NCBI GenBank assembly: GCA_022825825.1 | Contig: JAJDWA010000022.1 | Coordinates: 78,078 to 142,077, forward strand | Source of the DNA: Candidatus Poribacteria bacterium | GTDB lineage: Bacteria; Poribacteria; WGA-4E; WGA-3G | Length of the DNA stretch: 64,000 nucleotides | Direction: 5' to 3' | Shown: in pieces, positions 1,026 to 5,301 of the stretch | Layout: the number at the start of each line of letters is the position of its first letter | Position numbering within the stretch: position 1 is the stretch's first letter | The notes under the pieces: generated by a model | The model's database searches: none | What the model was told of the DNA's origin: nothing | The model's input: only the letters and a program-made list of their open reading frames with translations | Made by a program: the position numbers and the translations under genes

Positions 1026-2693
1026 ATGAAAACGTTAATTAGGGGTTGTCTTATTCTAATTTTAGTAAGTACCCCACTTTACGCGGATGTGAATTCCACA
1101 CATACTGACAAAATCACGCTCACTCTTGATAGTGGGCAAGAAGTAAATGTGAAAGGCTTTATTGCCCCAATAGGGGATGCCGTGTCCGATAATTTTAAAG
1201 AGTGGGATTCCTTGACAAATCTACGGGTTGCAGAACCTGAGAAAAAGTATCCCGCATCGGTTTTCCAATCTTTTCTGCCGAACAAACCGGTTTCGGTTGG
1301 TGAACTCTGGGGAGTAAATACGGAAGGTGTTGTTACCTTGCTCAAGCAGCTACATCCGAATCCAAATCTGTTTTTGCACATCAATGCGGGTGATTCTCTC
1401 GGTTTATGGGCGTGCCTACGTGCCTACAACGATAAGTTTGCTGACATCGTGTTTCGTATCCATGCCGAATTTGTCCTCAAAGATGGATGGTTTACACCCT
1501 CACAATTTACTGGACATCTGGTTATTGACCGAATCGAAGAGAAGGTCACTTTTTTTGAGATGTACATCCCTGAAGGCACGATAAACTTTGATGTCAATAG
1601 AAAATTACATGGAATGCGTATTTCAGGAACAGGCTATTGCTCGCAAATGGAACTCCGAACTGGAACGAAAGATTTTCTGGAAAACGTCAAGTTTTCAGAA
1701 TCCATTACCCAAAAAGCGGCTGAACGTGCTTTGATACTACGCTTCTATAAATCGCAGCAAATCAATTGGGTGCATCCGGACCAAGTGTTGGAGATGTCAA
1801 AAGCACTGCAAAAGCCGATTCAGGCTATCTCCATAGATGGACCGTTGGTTGATGAGTCGTGCTGAGGGAGCGGTAAAACCCTGAGGGCAGTTGTCCTCTC
1901 TAATGACCGAGTCATCAAGTTTTTGAACGAAAATTTTATCAATACTTGGGTGTCAAATGTTGAATTAGAACGTACACCTTCTAAGAAAGTCTTTATTGCG
2001 CTGAGACAGCAACAGGGATTTAAACCGTTTGATAAAATGCATCCGTTGGCACAGGCGATTATGAAAGGGTGGAAGAAACGTTCACCAGCGGATTCTTTGG
2101 TGCTATCACCGAAACTGGAACTGATGGGTAAATTACCTGTCAACGAACGGAGCGCGCCATACAACGGGGCAAAGGGTTACCTTTTATTTCTCAAGGATGC
2201 CTTAGATGGTAAAATGCCCGGATTGAATGAGGATATCCTGAAACCTACAAAAACAGATTGGGGGACGCTCCTCGAATCTGGTGCTGTCGTAGATGATGGC
2301 TTGACAGTTGTGCTTACCAATGAGAGACCCGAACAAGAGGTACTTAGTGTTTTTCGGGCATCTGACTACACTATCGTAGAAATTGATGTGACTGCCTATA
2401 AAGACGGCGGTTTGCTCACTATTGATGTCTGGGTTGGGGATGCCGAAATTGCTGGGTCGTTTGATCTGTTTTCTGGTCATACACAACGTGCTGTGGAACT
2501 CGCACCTGACAACGCGCTTGCCTCTGCAAGGAATATTCTTCCAGACGAAAGGAAAACAATCACGTATCGTTTTAACAAGGGACAAGTCTTCAAGTTAGGT
2601 GCTATTGGGAATTCCAGTGAGAAGGCGAAAATCAATGGATTTCTTGCTAATGTTTCTGTTAAACCTACACCACAACAAAAGGATGAACAGTAA
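1026..2693 (+). CDS. Secreted thioredoxin-like protein with in-frame TGA, candidate selenoprotein
   Basis: Start ATG at 1026 after AAGGAG. Residues 1-20 are a signal peptide (cut after LYA). The frame meets TGA at 1863-1865, directly after Cys279, and stays open without a frameshift to TAA at 2691-2693. Read through, it gives 555 residues. The sequence around the TGA, C-U-G-S-G-K at 279-284 followed by a helix-like stretch and NENFINTW, resembles a thioredoxin-fold active site with selenocysteine at position 280. A hairpin typical of a bacterial SECIS follows at 1883-1898. Residues about 430-550 form a domain that recurs in the neighbouring sigma factor. The function is unknown; an extracytoplasmic redox role is inferred. 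The alternatives are two separate ORFs (the second from TTG at 1923, with no ribosome site) or a nonsense mutation. No selA, selB, selD or tRNA-Sec lies in the window. Confidence 0.75.
1863..1898 (+). promoter_or_regulatory. Candidate Sec UGA codon with bacterial SECIS-like hairpin
   Basis: TGA at 1863-1865 is followed by the stem GAGGGC (1883-1888), loop AGTT (1889-1892) and GTCCTC (1893-1898): six pairs including one G-U. The loop starts 23 bases after the TGA and has a G in its first two positions. Both agree with the known bacterial SECIS pattern, from memory of the family rule. Confidence 0.65.
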
Positions 2694-2768: not shown

Positions 2769-4094
2769 ATGAAAAATGGCGATGTTGAACTGATTCTGAG
2801 TGTCCTTGATGGTGACCAAAGCGCTTTTACCAAACTGGTGCGAAAATACCAGAAACCGATTCACGCGCTTGCATGGCAGAAAATAGGGGATTTCCACATC
2901 GCAGAAGAGATTACCCAGGATACCTTCCTGAAGGTCTATCAGAAACTGGCAACGTTGAAAGATCCAAATCGGTTCGCCGGATGGCTTTATAGAATTGCCG
3001 CCCGCCAATGCCAAGCGTGGCTGAGAAAAAAACGGATGCAGACGCAATCGCTTGAAGATACGGATACCAAACAGATAGAAAAAATGACGTATTCTCAATA
3101 TGTTGCCGAAGAGCGGGCGAAAGCGGCGGCAGAAGCACAACGCGATATTGTCCATAAATTGCTTGCACGGTTACAAGAGAATGAACGTACCGCCATTACA
3201 CTCCATTATTTCGGAGAAATGACGTGTGAAGAAATTAGCCGTTTTTTAGGTGTATCGCCAAGCACTGTTAAGAGTCGGCTTCGGCGAGCGCGGCTCCGCT
3301 TAAAAAAAGCGGAACCTATGATCCGAGAAGCGTTAGAAGGTTTCCAAATTAAAGCGAATCTCACTGAGAATATCATGAAAGAAATCCCACGTATCAAACC
3401 CGAAACGCCTTCTGGAAGTAAACCATTTGTGCCGTGGGCAATCGCTGCTTCAACTGTTGTTATCGTTATGGCGATGCTGGGAATAGGTAATCAATATTTA
3501 TCTCGCTTCCAACAACCTTACAACTTTGATGCAACATCCGAGATGACGGTGGAGATTATTGACGCGCCTATTGTTCTGGATACTACTTCAAAACCGAATG
3601 TGCGGACTCAACAAGGTAAATCTATGGTACCCAGTAAAGGGGACAGTCTTACCCTGAACGCAACTCAACCGGAATATGTAACGAGATTTCTCTCCGCACA
3701 GGCAAAGAACATTGTCCTCAACGATGATAAACCTTCACAAGATGTATTGAGCATTTTCCGAACACCGACAGCAGGCTATCAAGATTATACTGTGGTTGAG
3801 ATTGATGCAACAGCATTTAGAGATGGTGGGACCCTCACAATTGATATTCAGGTAGGGAGTGCCGAGGCTGCCGGTGCGTTTGTGCTGTTTGAGAACGAGA
3901 ACGAACTCTCCATAGGAGAAATGCCCAAGACTATACTTACTGCAGCGTCTGGAATTCCAGGCGGTAAAACAGGGAGAATTGCATATCGTTTTGAACAAGG
4001 CACAACCTTCTTGTTAGGATCTACCGGCAAGTCGTTTAGTGGGAAAGGGAAGGTCAATTCTTTCCTCTCGAGAATTTCTATAGAACCTGAGTGA
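2769..4094 (+). CDS. ECF-type RNA polymerase sigma factor with membrane anchor and extracytoplasmic domain
   Basis: 441 residues; ATG 2769 with GGAGG at 2758-2762. Residues about 10-75 are sigma region 2 (AEEITQDTF motif) and about 130-185 region 4 with the helix-turn-helix (EEISRFLGVSPSTVKSRLRR). A single hydrophobic segment at about 219-243 follows, and then some 200 residues that should lie outside the cytoplasmic membrane. The last 120 (about 318-441) match the C-terminal domain of the upstream secreted protein (DVLSIFR, TVVEIDATAFRDGGTLTID, ITYRF/IAYRF). No separate anti-sigma factor is nearby, so the sensor may be built in. Its sigma part is closely similar to the protein at 48117. The 75-base gap to the upstream gene suggests one operon. 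Confidence 0.9.
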   Translation: MKNGDVELILSVLDGDQSAFTKLVRKYQKPIHALAWQKIGDFHIAEEITQDTFLKVYQKLATLKDPNRFAGWLYRIAARQCQAWLRKKRMQTQSLEDTDTKQIEKMTYSQYVAEERAKAAAEAQRDIVHKLLARLQENERTAITLHYFGEMTCEEISRFLGVSPSTVKSRLRRARLRLKKAEPMIREALEGFQIKANLTENIMKEIPRIKPETPSGSKPFVPWAIAASTVVIVMAMLGIGNQYLSRFQQPYNFDATSEMTVEIIDAPIVLDTTSKPNVRTQQGKSMVPSKGDSLTLNATQPEYVTRFLSAQAKNIVLNDDKPSQDVLSIFRTPTAGYQDYTVVEIDATAFRDGGTLTIDIQVGSAEAAGAFVLFENENELSIGEMPKTILTAASGIPGGKTGRIAYRFEQGTTFLLGSTGKSFSGKGKVNSFLSRISIEPE

Positions 4095-4206: not shown

Positions 4207-5301
4207 ATGAAAATAACGAAATTAGTACATTTTATGCTTCTCTTAACTGTTGCCGTCTTCCTGGTGGACGGTTTTACGCAGGATTTACCCACGGGTGCTA
4301 TAGCACGCATTGACATAGGTGAGGGACCTGTTAATGCTATTGCATATTCTCGATCCGAAAATCGGATCGCAGTGGCAGCTGCAGAAAATATTCACATCTA
4401 CGATGCAAGCACCTATAAAAAACTTACGGTGTTTAACGGACATACCGATTTGGTATTAGCACTTGCCTTTTCTCCGAACGGCAAATTTCTTGTGAGCGGT
4501 AGTTTGGACAAGACAGCGCGTTTATGGAATATAGACTTAGGAAAACTCATACACACTTACAAAAAACATACAGGATCTATCAATGCTGTTGCTTTTTCAA
4601 CAAAGGGGGAGAAGTTTAAGAGTGGTAGTAACGAACATGCGGATGTTTGGTATTTGTATTTGGACCATCTCAGATCAGGGAAAAGTGGTAGTTACATGCC
4701 TACGAACAAATTCACTGCCACAGCATTCTCTTATGCAGGTGAAATAGAAGCACGAGCGTTCGACAGCGTATCAGTTTTGGATGATACCTTAGTTAAGCTC
4801 TTATCAGAAAACGGAAGAAAAATTGAGAAGAGCATTGTTTTCCTTGAGAGTTCGGATAGGGCTGGTTTCTTGTCTGCACATACAGCTTCGGTTAATGTCC
4901 TGACCCTTTTTGCAAAAGGAAAAATCCTTGCAACCGGAAGCGTAGATAAGACAATTCAGTTATGGAATGCAAACACCACTATTAACACCACTACTCACAT
5001 CACTAAACCGCTACACATTCTTTCAGGACATACCGGGGGCATTGCTGCTATGGACTTCTCAGTGAACGGTAAACTTCTTGCCAGTGGGGGTTCGGATAAA
5101 ACGATTCGACTATGGGATGTCGCAACTGGACAGCATCTGCATACGTTTACGGGGCATACGGGTGAAATTGGCGCGGTGACATTCTTGGGAGACAAAGCAC
5201 TTGCCAGGACAGCATTTGCTAAAGATAAAGCACTTGCAAGCGGAAGTTCAGATGGCACAGTTATCATCTGGGATCTGGGTAAAGTTATTCCAAATGATTA
5301 A
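4207..5301 (+). CDS. Secreted WD40-repeat protein
   Basis: 364 residues with an N-terminal hydrophobic signal sequence (residues 6-25, cut near TQD). At least five WD units are readable: GHTDLVLALAFSPNGK...ARLWNI, one around residue 120, one near 245 (IQLWN), GHTGGIAAMDFS...IRLWDV and GHTGEIGAVTF...VIIWDL. The middle (residues 130-220) is degenerate and lacks clear WD ends. WD40 propellers are protein-binding platforms; no enzyme motif is present. It lies 112 bases downstream of the sigma factor on the same strand and may belong to the same unit. The arrangement sigma factor plus secreted WD40 recurs at 45777-50927. Confidence 0.85.
   Translation: MKITKLVHFMLLLTVAVFLVDGFTQDLPTGAIARIDIGEGPVNAIAYSRSENRIAVAAAENIHIYDASTYKKLTVFNGHTDLVLALAFSPNGKFLVSGSLDKTARLWNIDLGKLIHTYKKHTGSINAVAFSTKGEKFKSGSNEHADVWYLYLDHLRSGKSGSYMPTNKFTATAFSYAGEIEARAFDSVSVLDDTLVKLLSENGRKIEKSIVFLESSDRAGFLSAHTASVNVLTLFAKGKILATGSVDKTIQLWNANTTINTTTHITKPLHILSGHTGGIAAMDFSVNGKLLASGGSDKTIRLWDVATGQHLHTFTGHTGEIGAVTFLGDKALARTAFAKDKALASGSSDGTVIIWDLGKVIPND

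Follow-up and report, generated by a model that had tools for sequence, protein, structure and literature searches.

Two open reading frames (ORFs) that lie in the same frame, separated only by a TGA codon, raise the question of whether they are separate genes, the remains of one gene, or a single gene in which UGA is read as selenocysteine (Sec). We addressed this question for a locus within a 64,000-nt stretch of DNA (hereafter the window) from Candidatus Poribacteria bacterium (GCA_022825825.1, contig JAJDWA010000022.1, positions 78,078 to 142,077 of the forward strand), whose genome comprises 5.1 Mb and is 84% complete. On the forward strand, positions 1026 to 2693 form a single frame of 555 codons closed by a TAA stop, and its sole interruption is a TGA at 1863-1865, directly after the TGC codon of Cys279 (1860-1862). 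The ORF finder splits this frame into 1026-1865 (279 aa) and 1923-2693 (256 aa, TTG start), with 19 open codons lying in between; the context of the UGA is DESC-U-GSGK. These features had led a first-pass annotation to propose a selenoprotein, and its coordinates and motif proved correct on re-reading. Our analysis supports, with high confidence, a single gene whose product is homologous to eukaryotic selenoprotein N (SELENON) and whose UGA280 would be decoded as Sec through the SelA, SelB, SelD and tRNA-Sec of the same genome, yielding what may be an exported redox protein with an adjacent Cys-Sec (C-U) pair.

The evidence for a coding UGA comes in the first place from its conservation. Homologues, taken as distinct copies from Poribacteria loci, were aligned at residue 280 with every stop read through. 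Codon 280 was TGA in 120 of 122 distinct homologues, GGA in one (L078) and TCA in one (L077), the latter two having been fetched because they were listed without a stop in an earlier genome search; these two sense codons seen in DNA are each one base away from TGA. TGA was likewise found in 88/88 further distinct copies (named loci L127-L205), and none of these 210 copies carried TAA, TAG or a Cys codon at this position. The first-pass annotation had expected homologues to show TGA or Cys here: the expectation held for TGA and failed for Cys, which was encoded in 0/210 copies and is nearly absent, occurring in one (P0226) of five database proteins examined in sequence. In a search across the phylum, relatives were detected in 64 of 84 genomes and, among the matches listed, all rows but two hold at least one TGA. 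The recurrence of the same TGA codon in so many genomes makes a base error unlikely as a general cause. Nor has TGA simply been reassigned, since beyond the site the 116 complete family ORFs terminate at TAA (46), TGA (37) or TAG (33), which indicates that recoding depends on context. In a non-redundant set of 96 copies from both branches of the family (<93% DNA identity), Cys279 was present throughout, and Gly at U+3 and Arg at U+7, both located before any downstream start, were invariant (96/96), with U+3 drawing on all four Gly codons. At other positions around the site, U-2 was Ser (73) or Ala (23), U+1 Gly (85) or Ala (11) and U+4 Lys (94) or Arg (2).

The second line of evidence is a likely selenocysteine insertion sequence (SECIS) located at 1883-1898 on the forward strand, GAGGGC-AGUU-GUCCUC, which begins 17 nt after the UGA. 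This hairpin has 6 bp and a 4-nt loop with G in second position, a UGA-to-loop distance of 23 nt and a folding energy of -8.9 kcal/mol on its own, and thus lies within all published limits for bacterial SECIS elements (loop of 3-9 nt, stem of 4-16 bp, G at the first or second base of the loop, loop at 16-37 nt from the UGA, minimum free energy ≤ -7.5; PMC13188914). The six-pair hairpin with loop AGTT, and its SECIS-like shape and distance, had been claimed by the first-pass annotation and were both borne out. Of the 96 copies, 95 lie within the stem and loop-G limits. Relative synonymous entropy was 0.04-0.39 over the hairpin (U+6 to U+11), compared to 0.45-0.99 from U+12 to U+39 and 0.49-0.98 from U-18 to U-2; it was also restricted at the Cys codon U-1 (0.08) and at U+1, U+2, U+4 and U+5 (0.30-0.51), and not at U+3 (0.77).

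Covariation was evaluated on one sequence per distinct hairpin region, that is 59 sequences from 120 copies, 53 of them belonging to branch A and 6 to branch B. Within branch A, 98.7% of the cells were paired and 9 cells had changed on both sides; neither this fraction nor the covariation score was equalled in any of 500 shuffles, and pairing fell to 46-76% when the partners were slid. Since related sequences can beat shuffles without any structure, the slid controls and the constraint on synonymous sites carry weight here. When both branches were taken together (96 non-redundant copies), 96.0% of the cells were paired; the highest value among 2000 shuffles was 95.1%, and all six pairs formed in 85/96. 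In branch B the pairing lies two bases further on (GAGGGC-GGGUCC-GCUCUC), with 97.2% of cells paired and one G-C to C-G exchange.

The genome of the window also encodes what Sec insertion would need. It holds a tRNA-Sec (78.7 bits, anticodon UCA according to ARAGORN) 34 nt from selB (352 bits), together with selA (610.7 bits) and selD (371.8 bits), so that the whole machinery whose presence the first-pass annotation had made a check of its proposal is there. Over the 84 Poribacteria genomes, scores above the curated cut-off were obtained for selB in 75, selA in 71, selD in 75 and tRNA-Sec in 74, although the tRNA-Sec cut-off was exceeded in 5/14 control genomes too, so that scores near it mean little. 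Among the 64 family-bearing genomes, selB was below cut-off in five (G029, G032, G047, G058 and G059), all 73-83% complete. In G003 and G004, two genomes of the same class, selA gave no match, selB and selD did not exceed the cut-off, and no family member was present. The selD gene of the window genome (L117, G000:C51:57200-58700) carries an in-frame TGA of its own, in the context CAG-U-ASK; a clear SECIS hairpin was not seen in it in a simple fold, and of three distant selD genes two had hairpins.

On these data Sec insertion at UGA280 is strongly predicted from sequence, and several observations that weigh against it have to be set beside them. Of the 120 database matches listed for the family, 45 end exactly at Cys279, 59 begin after the UGA and 16 span the site, and these 16 proteins carry Gly (13), Trp (2) or Thr (1); in DNA, the UGA is absent from 2 of the 122 copies. 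Some copies thus live without Sec or Cys, and for those a redox role is doubtful. The spanning proteins are, however, copies without UGA that gene calling left whole, and thus a biased sample. The copies that lost the UGA (P0002-P0017, L077, L078) have Gly, Ser, Trp or Thr, mostly Gly and not Cys. In the tree, rows without Sec sit among rows with Sec, which suggests repeated Sec loss. As to the hairpin, the branch-B form was not above shuffles (171/500, six sequences), the single-sequence fold was no stabler than shuffles (z -0.38 for 56 nt, z -0.72 for 38 nt), and no SECIS loop motif in common with the selD of the window genome was evident. With a folding energy this ordinary, energy is no evidence for a SECIS; covariation and synonymous constraint are.

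Part of this material would fit a UGA that acts as a stop, or a leaky one, giving a 279-residue product while an ordinary tRNA reads through part of the time; the hairpin would then stimulate this read-through and not Sec insertion. UGA release does occur in these genomes, as the 37 family ORFs terminated by TGA indicate, and the copies with Gly, Ser, Trp or Thr at the site suggest that Sec is not always needed. Against this, the codon is never TAA or TAG in the 210 copies, as Sec decoding requires, the hairpin fits the bacterial SECIS model in genomes with SelB and tRNA-Sec, and an SCUG motif also surrounds the Sec of SELENON (PMC12839072). We therefore consider a stop or leaky codon improbable and retain Sec insertion.

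SELENON (also SEPN1) is the protein behind a human muscle disease. Its relationship to the window protein was first suggested by the S-C-U-G motif in which the latter carries its C-U pair, and by a branch with ILLWGALDDESC-U (L074). SELENON entries were retrieved with a query that they matched at up to 99% over its whole length, and the entries themselves were then compared; because the aligned entries were garbled at Sec, the position of the SELENON Sec (SCUG) was taken from papers. By BLASTP, residues 102-315 of the window protein (1329-1970, forward strand) matched coelacanth SELENON through the C-U site with 113 bits, E 6e-31 and 31% identity, and the branch-B protein L090 matched it with 149 bits and 33%. 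An hhalign comparison of ten vertebrate SELENON with ten branch-B proteins gave a probability of 100 and E 3.8e-46 over 315 columns. Likeness also extends to the coding-region hairpin just 3′ of the UGA that reviews describe in SELENON, the selenocysteine redefinition element (SRE), within which the myopathy positions G463, R466 and R469 lie (PMC3541580). When the SELENON Sec is numbered 462 as in the literature, these three positions correspond to U+1, U+4 and U+7, occupied in the 96 bacterial copies by G (85) or A (11), K (94) or R (2), and R (96).

We also weighed whether the two proteins merely share a thioredoxin fold and came by their C-U sites through convergence. The EF-hand and N-terminal membrane anchor segment of SELENON have no counterpart in the aligned bacterial rows (no residues stand against DxxDxxLSPEEF), and the branch between the bacterial and SELENON groups is long (0.95 on each side). 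The profile match nevertheless spans 315 columns, the conserved blocks in common with SELENON (FRIHAEF, P.QFTG, MEL) lie largely outside the thioredoxin-like domain, and by sequence known-structure thioredoxins reach only E 2.1, which leaves convergence very little room. On sequence evidence, then, the window protein is a homologue of eukaryotic SELENON. As the alignment shows neither EF-hand nor anchor segment, we assign it to a bacterial branch within the core family, not to the SELENON orthologs; Pfam alone decides nothing here, because it finds no EF-hand in the window protein and none in coelacanth SELENON either. Searches of Pfam and NCBIfam at E 0.01 gave no family for the window protein, and a sequence search of the PDB gave no significant match.

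The structural model placed a thioredoxin-like fold at residues 244-396 (1755-2213, forward strand), in agreement with structural matches, with Sec280 just before a helix in a strand-loop-helix active site; this is where the first-pass annotation had located the TGA within such a fold. Since the two halves join in this one modelled domain and the same TGA, followed by conserved coding, recurs across independent genomes, the split into two ORFs by ORF finders and the halves that mostly fill the databases (45 + 59 of the 120 matches listed) give hardly any credit to a pair of distinct genes, to gene decay or to an error in sequencing.

Under the favored reading of a single selenoprotein gene, UGA280 would be decoded by the SelA, SelB, SelD and tRNA-Sec of the genome under the guidance of the hairpin at 1883-1898. 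The N-terminus (1026-1085, forward strand) looks signal-like by eye, with a hydrophobic stretch followed by LYA-D and a modelled helix at residues 2-14, and the protein may thus be exported. Cys279, the putative redox partner, would form with Sec280 an adjacent selenenylsulfide pair in the thioredoxin-like domain, Sec280 acting as the nucleophile, and the pair might act on proteins that are secreted or belong to the envelope, reducing their disulfides (or peroxides). Four tandem copies on contig C25 begin without an evident signal peptide, which counts against export as a family trait. A likely ribosome site, AAGGAG, was recognized by eye at 1011-1016, 5′ of the ATG at 1026; none was seen by eye before 1923, as the first-pass annotation had stated. 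Residues 418-550 (2277-2675, forward strand) form, according to alignment, model and structural matches, a C-terminal beta-sandwich domain that is absent from SELENON. Searches of the window against Rfam and for tRNA genes returned no match above threshold and no tRNA, respectively.

Poribacteria are mostly sponge symbionts, and the family is present there in several copies per genome. Using residues 101-330 as query in nine genomes, we obtained matches in eight: the window genome gave 6 matches with one TGA in each, and G080 gave 19 match rows, 15 with TGA, some rows being parts of one copy. The C25 copies form a tandem array (L121 4245-10502; G000:C25, ~84.7-91.0 kb) of four overlapping SELENON-like UGA genes, each appearing as two ORFs, followed by a gene for a WD40-repeat protein. 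A scan across phyla with one peptide pattern shaped by this family matched 173 stretches, of which 140 were confirmed; the best 80 of these 140 represent 79 distinct loci, all titled Poribacteria, and the other 60 may include members of further phyla. In a quick tree of 52 bacterial and 7 vertebrate rows, rooted on SELENON by choice and built without invertebrate, sponge or algal SELENON, bacterial and SELENON rows were separated with support 100.

Downstream of the selenoprotein gene, the next gene of the window (2769-4094) encodes an extracytoplasmic function (ECF)-type sigma factor. The C-terminal part of this factor and the C-terminal domain of the selenoprotein are related (45%). A WD40-repeat protein is encoded close downstream of it (4207-5301). 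Sigma-factor and WD40 matches each occurred at 15/79 loci and at 0/15 control loci, a weak signal given that the control loci were half as long and some loci overlap. The database protein P0226 (690 aa) joins an ECF sigma factor and a SELENON-like core in one chain, the core having Cys where Sec would stand, and is possibly a redox-sensing sigma factor.

With regard to novelty, Table 1 of a 2026 catalogue of prokaryotic selenoproteins (119 families and subfamilies; PMC13188914) contains no SELENON-like family or SCUG motif, and Poribacteria are not named in the main text of that work. In open-access full text (subscription papers and preprints lying outside the search), Poribacteria together with selenoprotein or selenoprotein N gave nothing, Poribacteria with selenocysteine gave isolated single mentions, and wording such as bacterial SelN or SELENON-like led only to a human-gene paper. 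These sequences may already be grouped in some protein database; what is new is that they belong to the SELENON core family, as a branch found in bacteria whose SECIS is of the bacterial type. SELENON was once termed animal-specific (PMC2375036) and was later found in algae (PMC7539508), and the bacterial homologues extend the family to bacteria. They also reveal a large family, multi-copy in Poribacteria, that gene calling cuts at the UGA. The bacterial homologues, which lack the anchor segment, could open up the structure and enzymology of SELENON, whose activity becomes testable. The SRE resembles a bacterial SECIS according to a 2026 review (PMC12936836), and the origin of this recoding hairpin from a SECIS is made testable as well. 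More tentatively, and on balance doubtfully, the Poribacteria genes and SELENON could share a single selenoprotein ancestor, passed between bacteria and early eukaryotes together with its UGA, the SRE being the remnant of a bacterial SECIS; if this were true, a muscle-disease protein would be a bacterial invention.

Among known systems, DsbH, AGR2/AGR3, ERp19, DsbD-gamma and the UAS domain are thioredoxin-like as well and have no significant sequence match to the window protein. They carry CxxC or a variant of it at the active site, where the window protein has C-U-G-S-G. With the catalogued prokaryotic families the window gene has in common SelB-dependent Sec insertion, as predicted here, and a SECIS within the coding region (PMC13188914). 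Compared to SELENON, the window protein has the extra C-terminal beta-sandwich, its likely SECIS, of bacterial type, lies inside the coding region and bacterial genomes hold many copies, whereas the homologous core, the SC-U-G active site and a coding-region hairpin just after the UGA are common to both.
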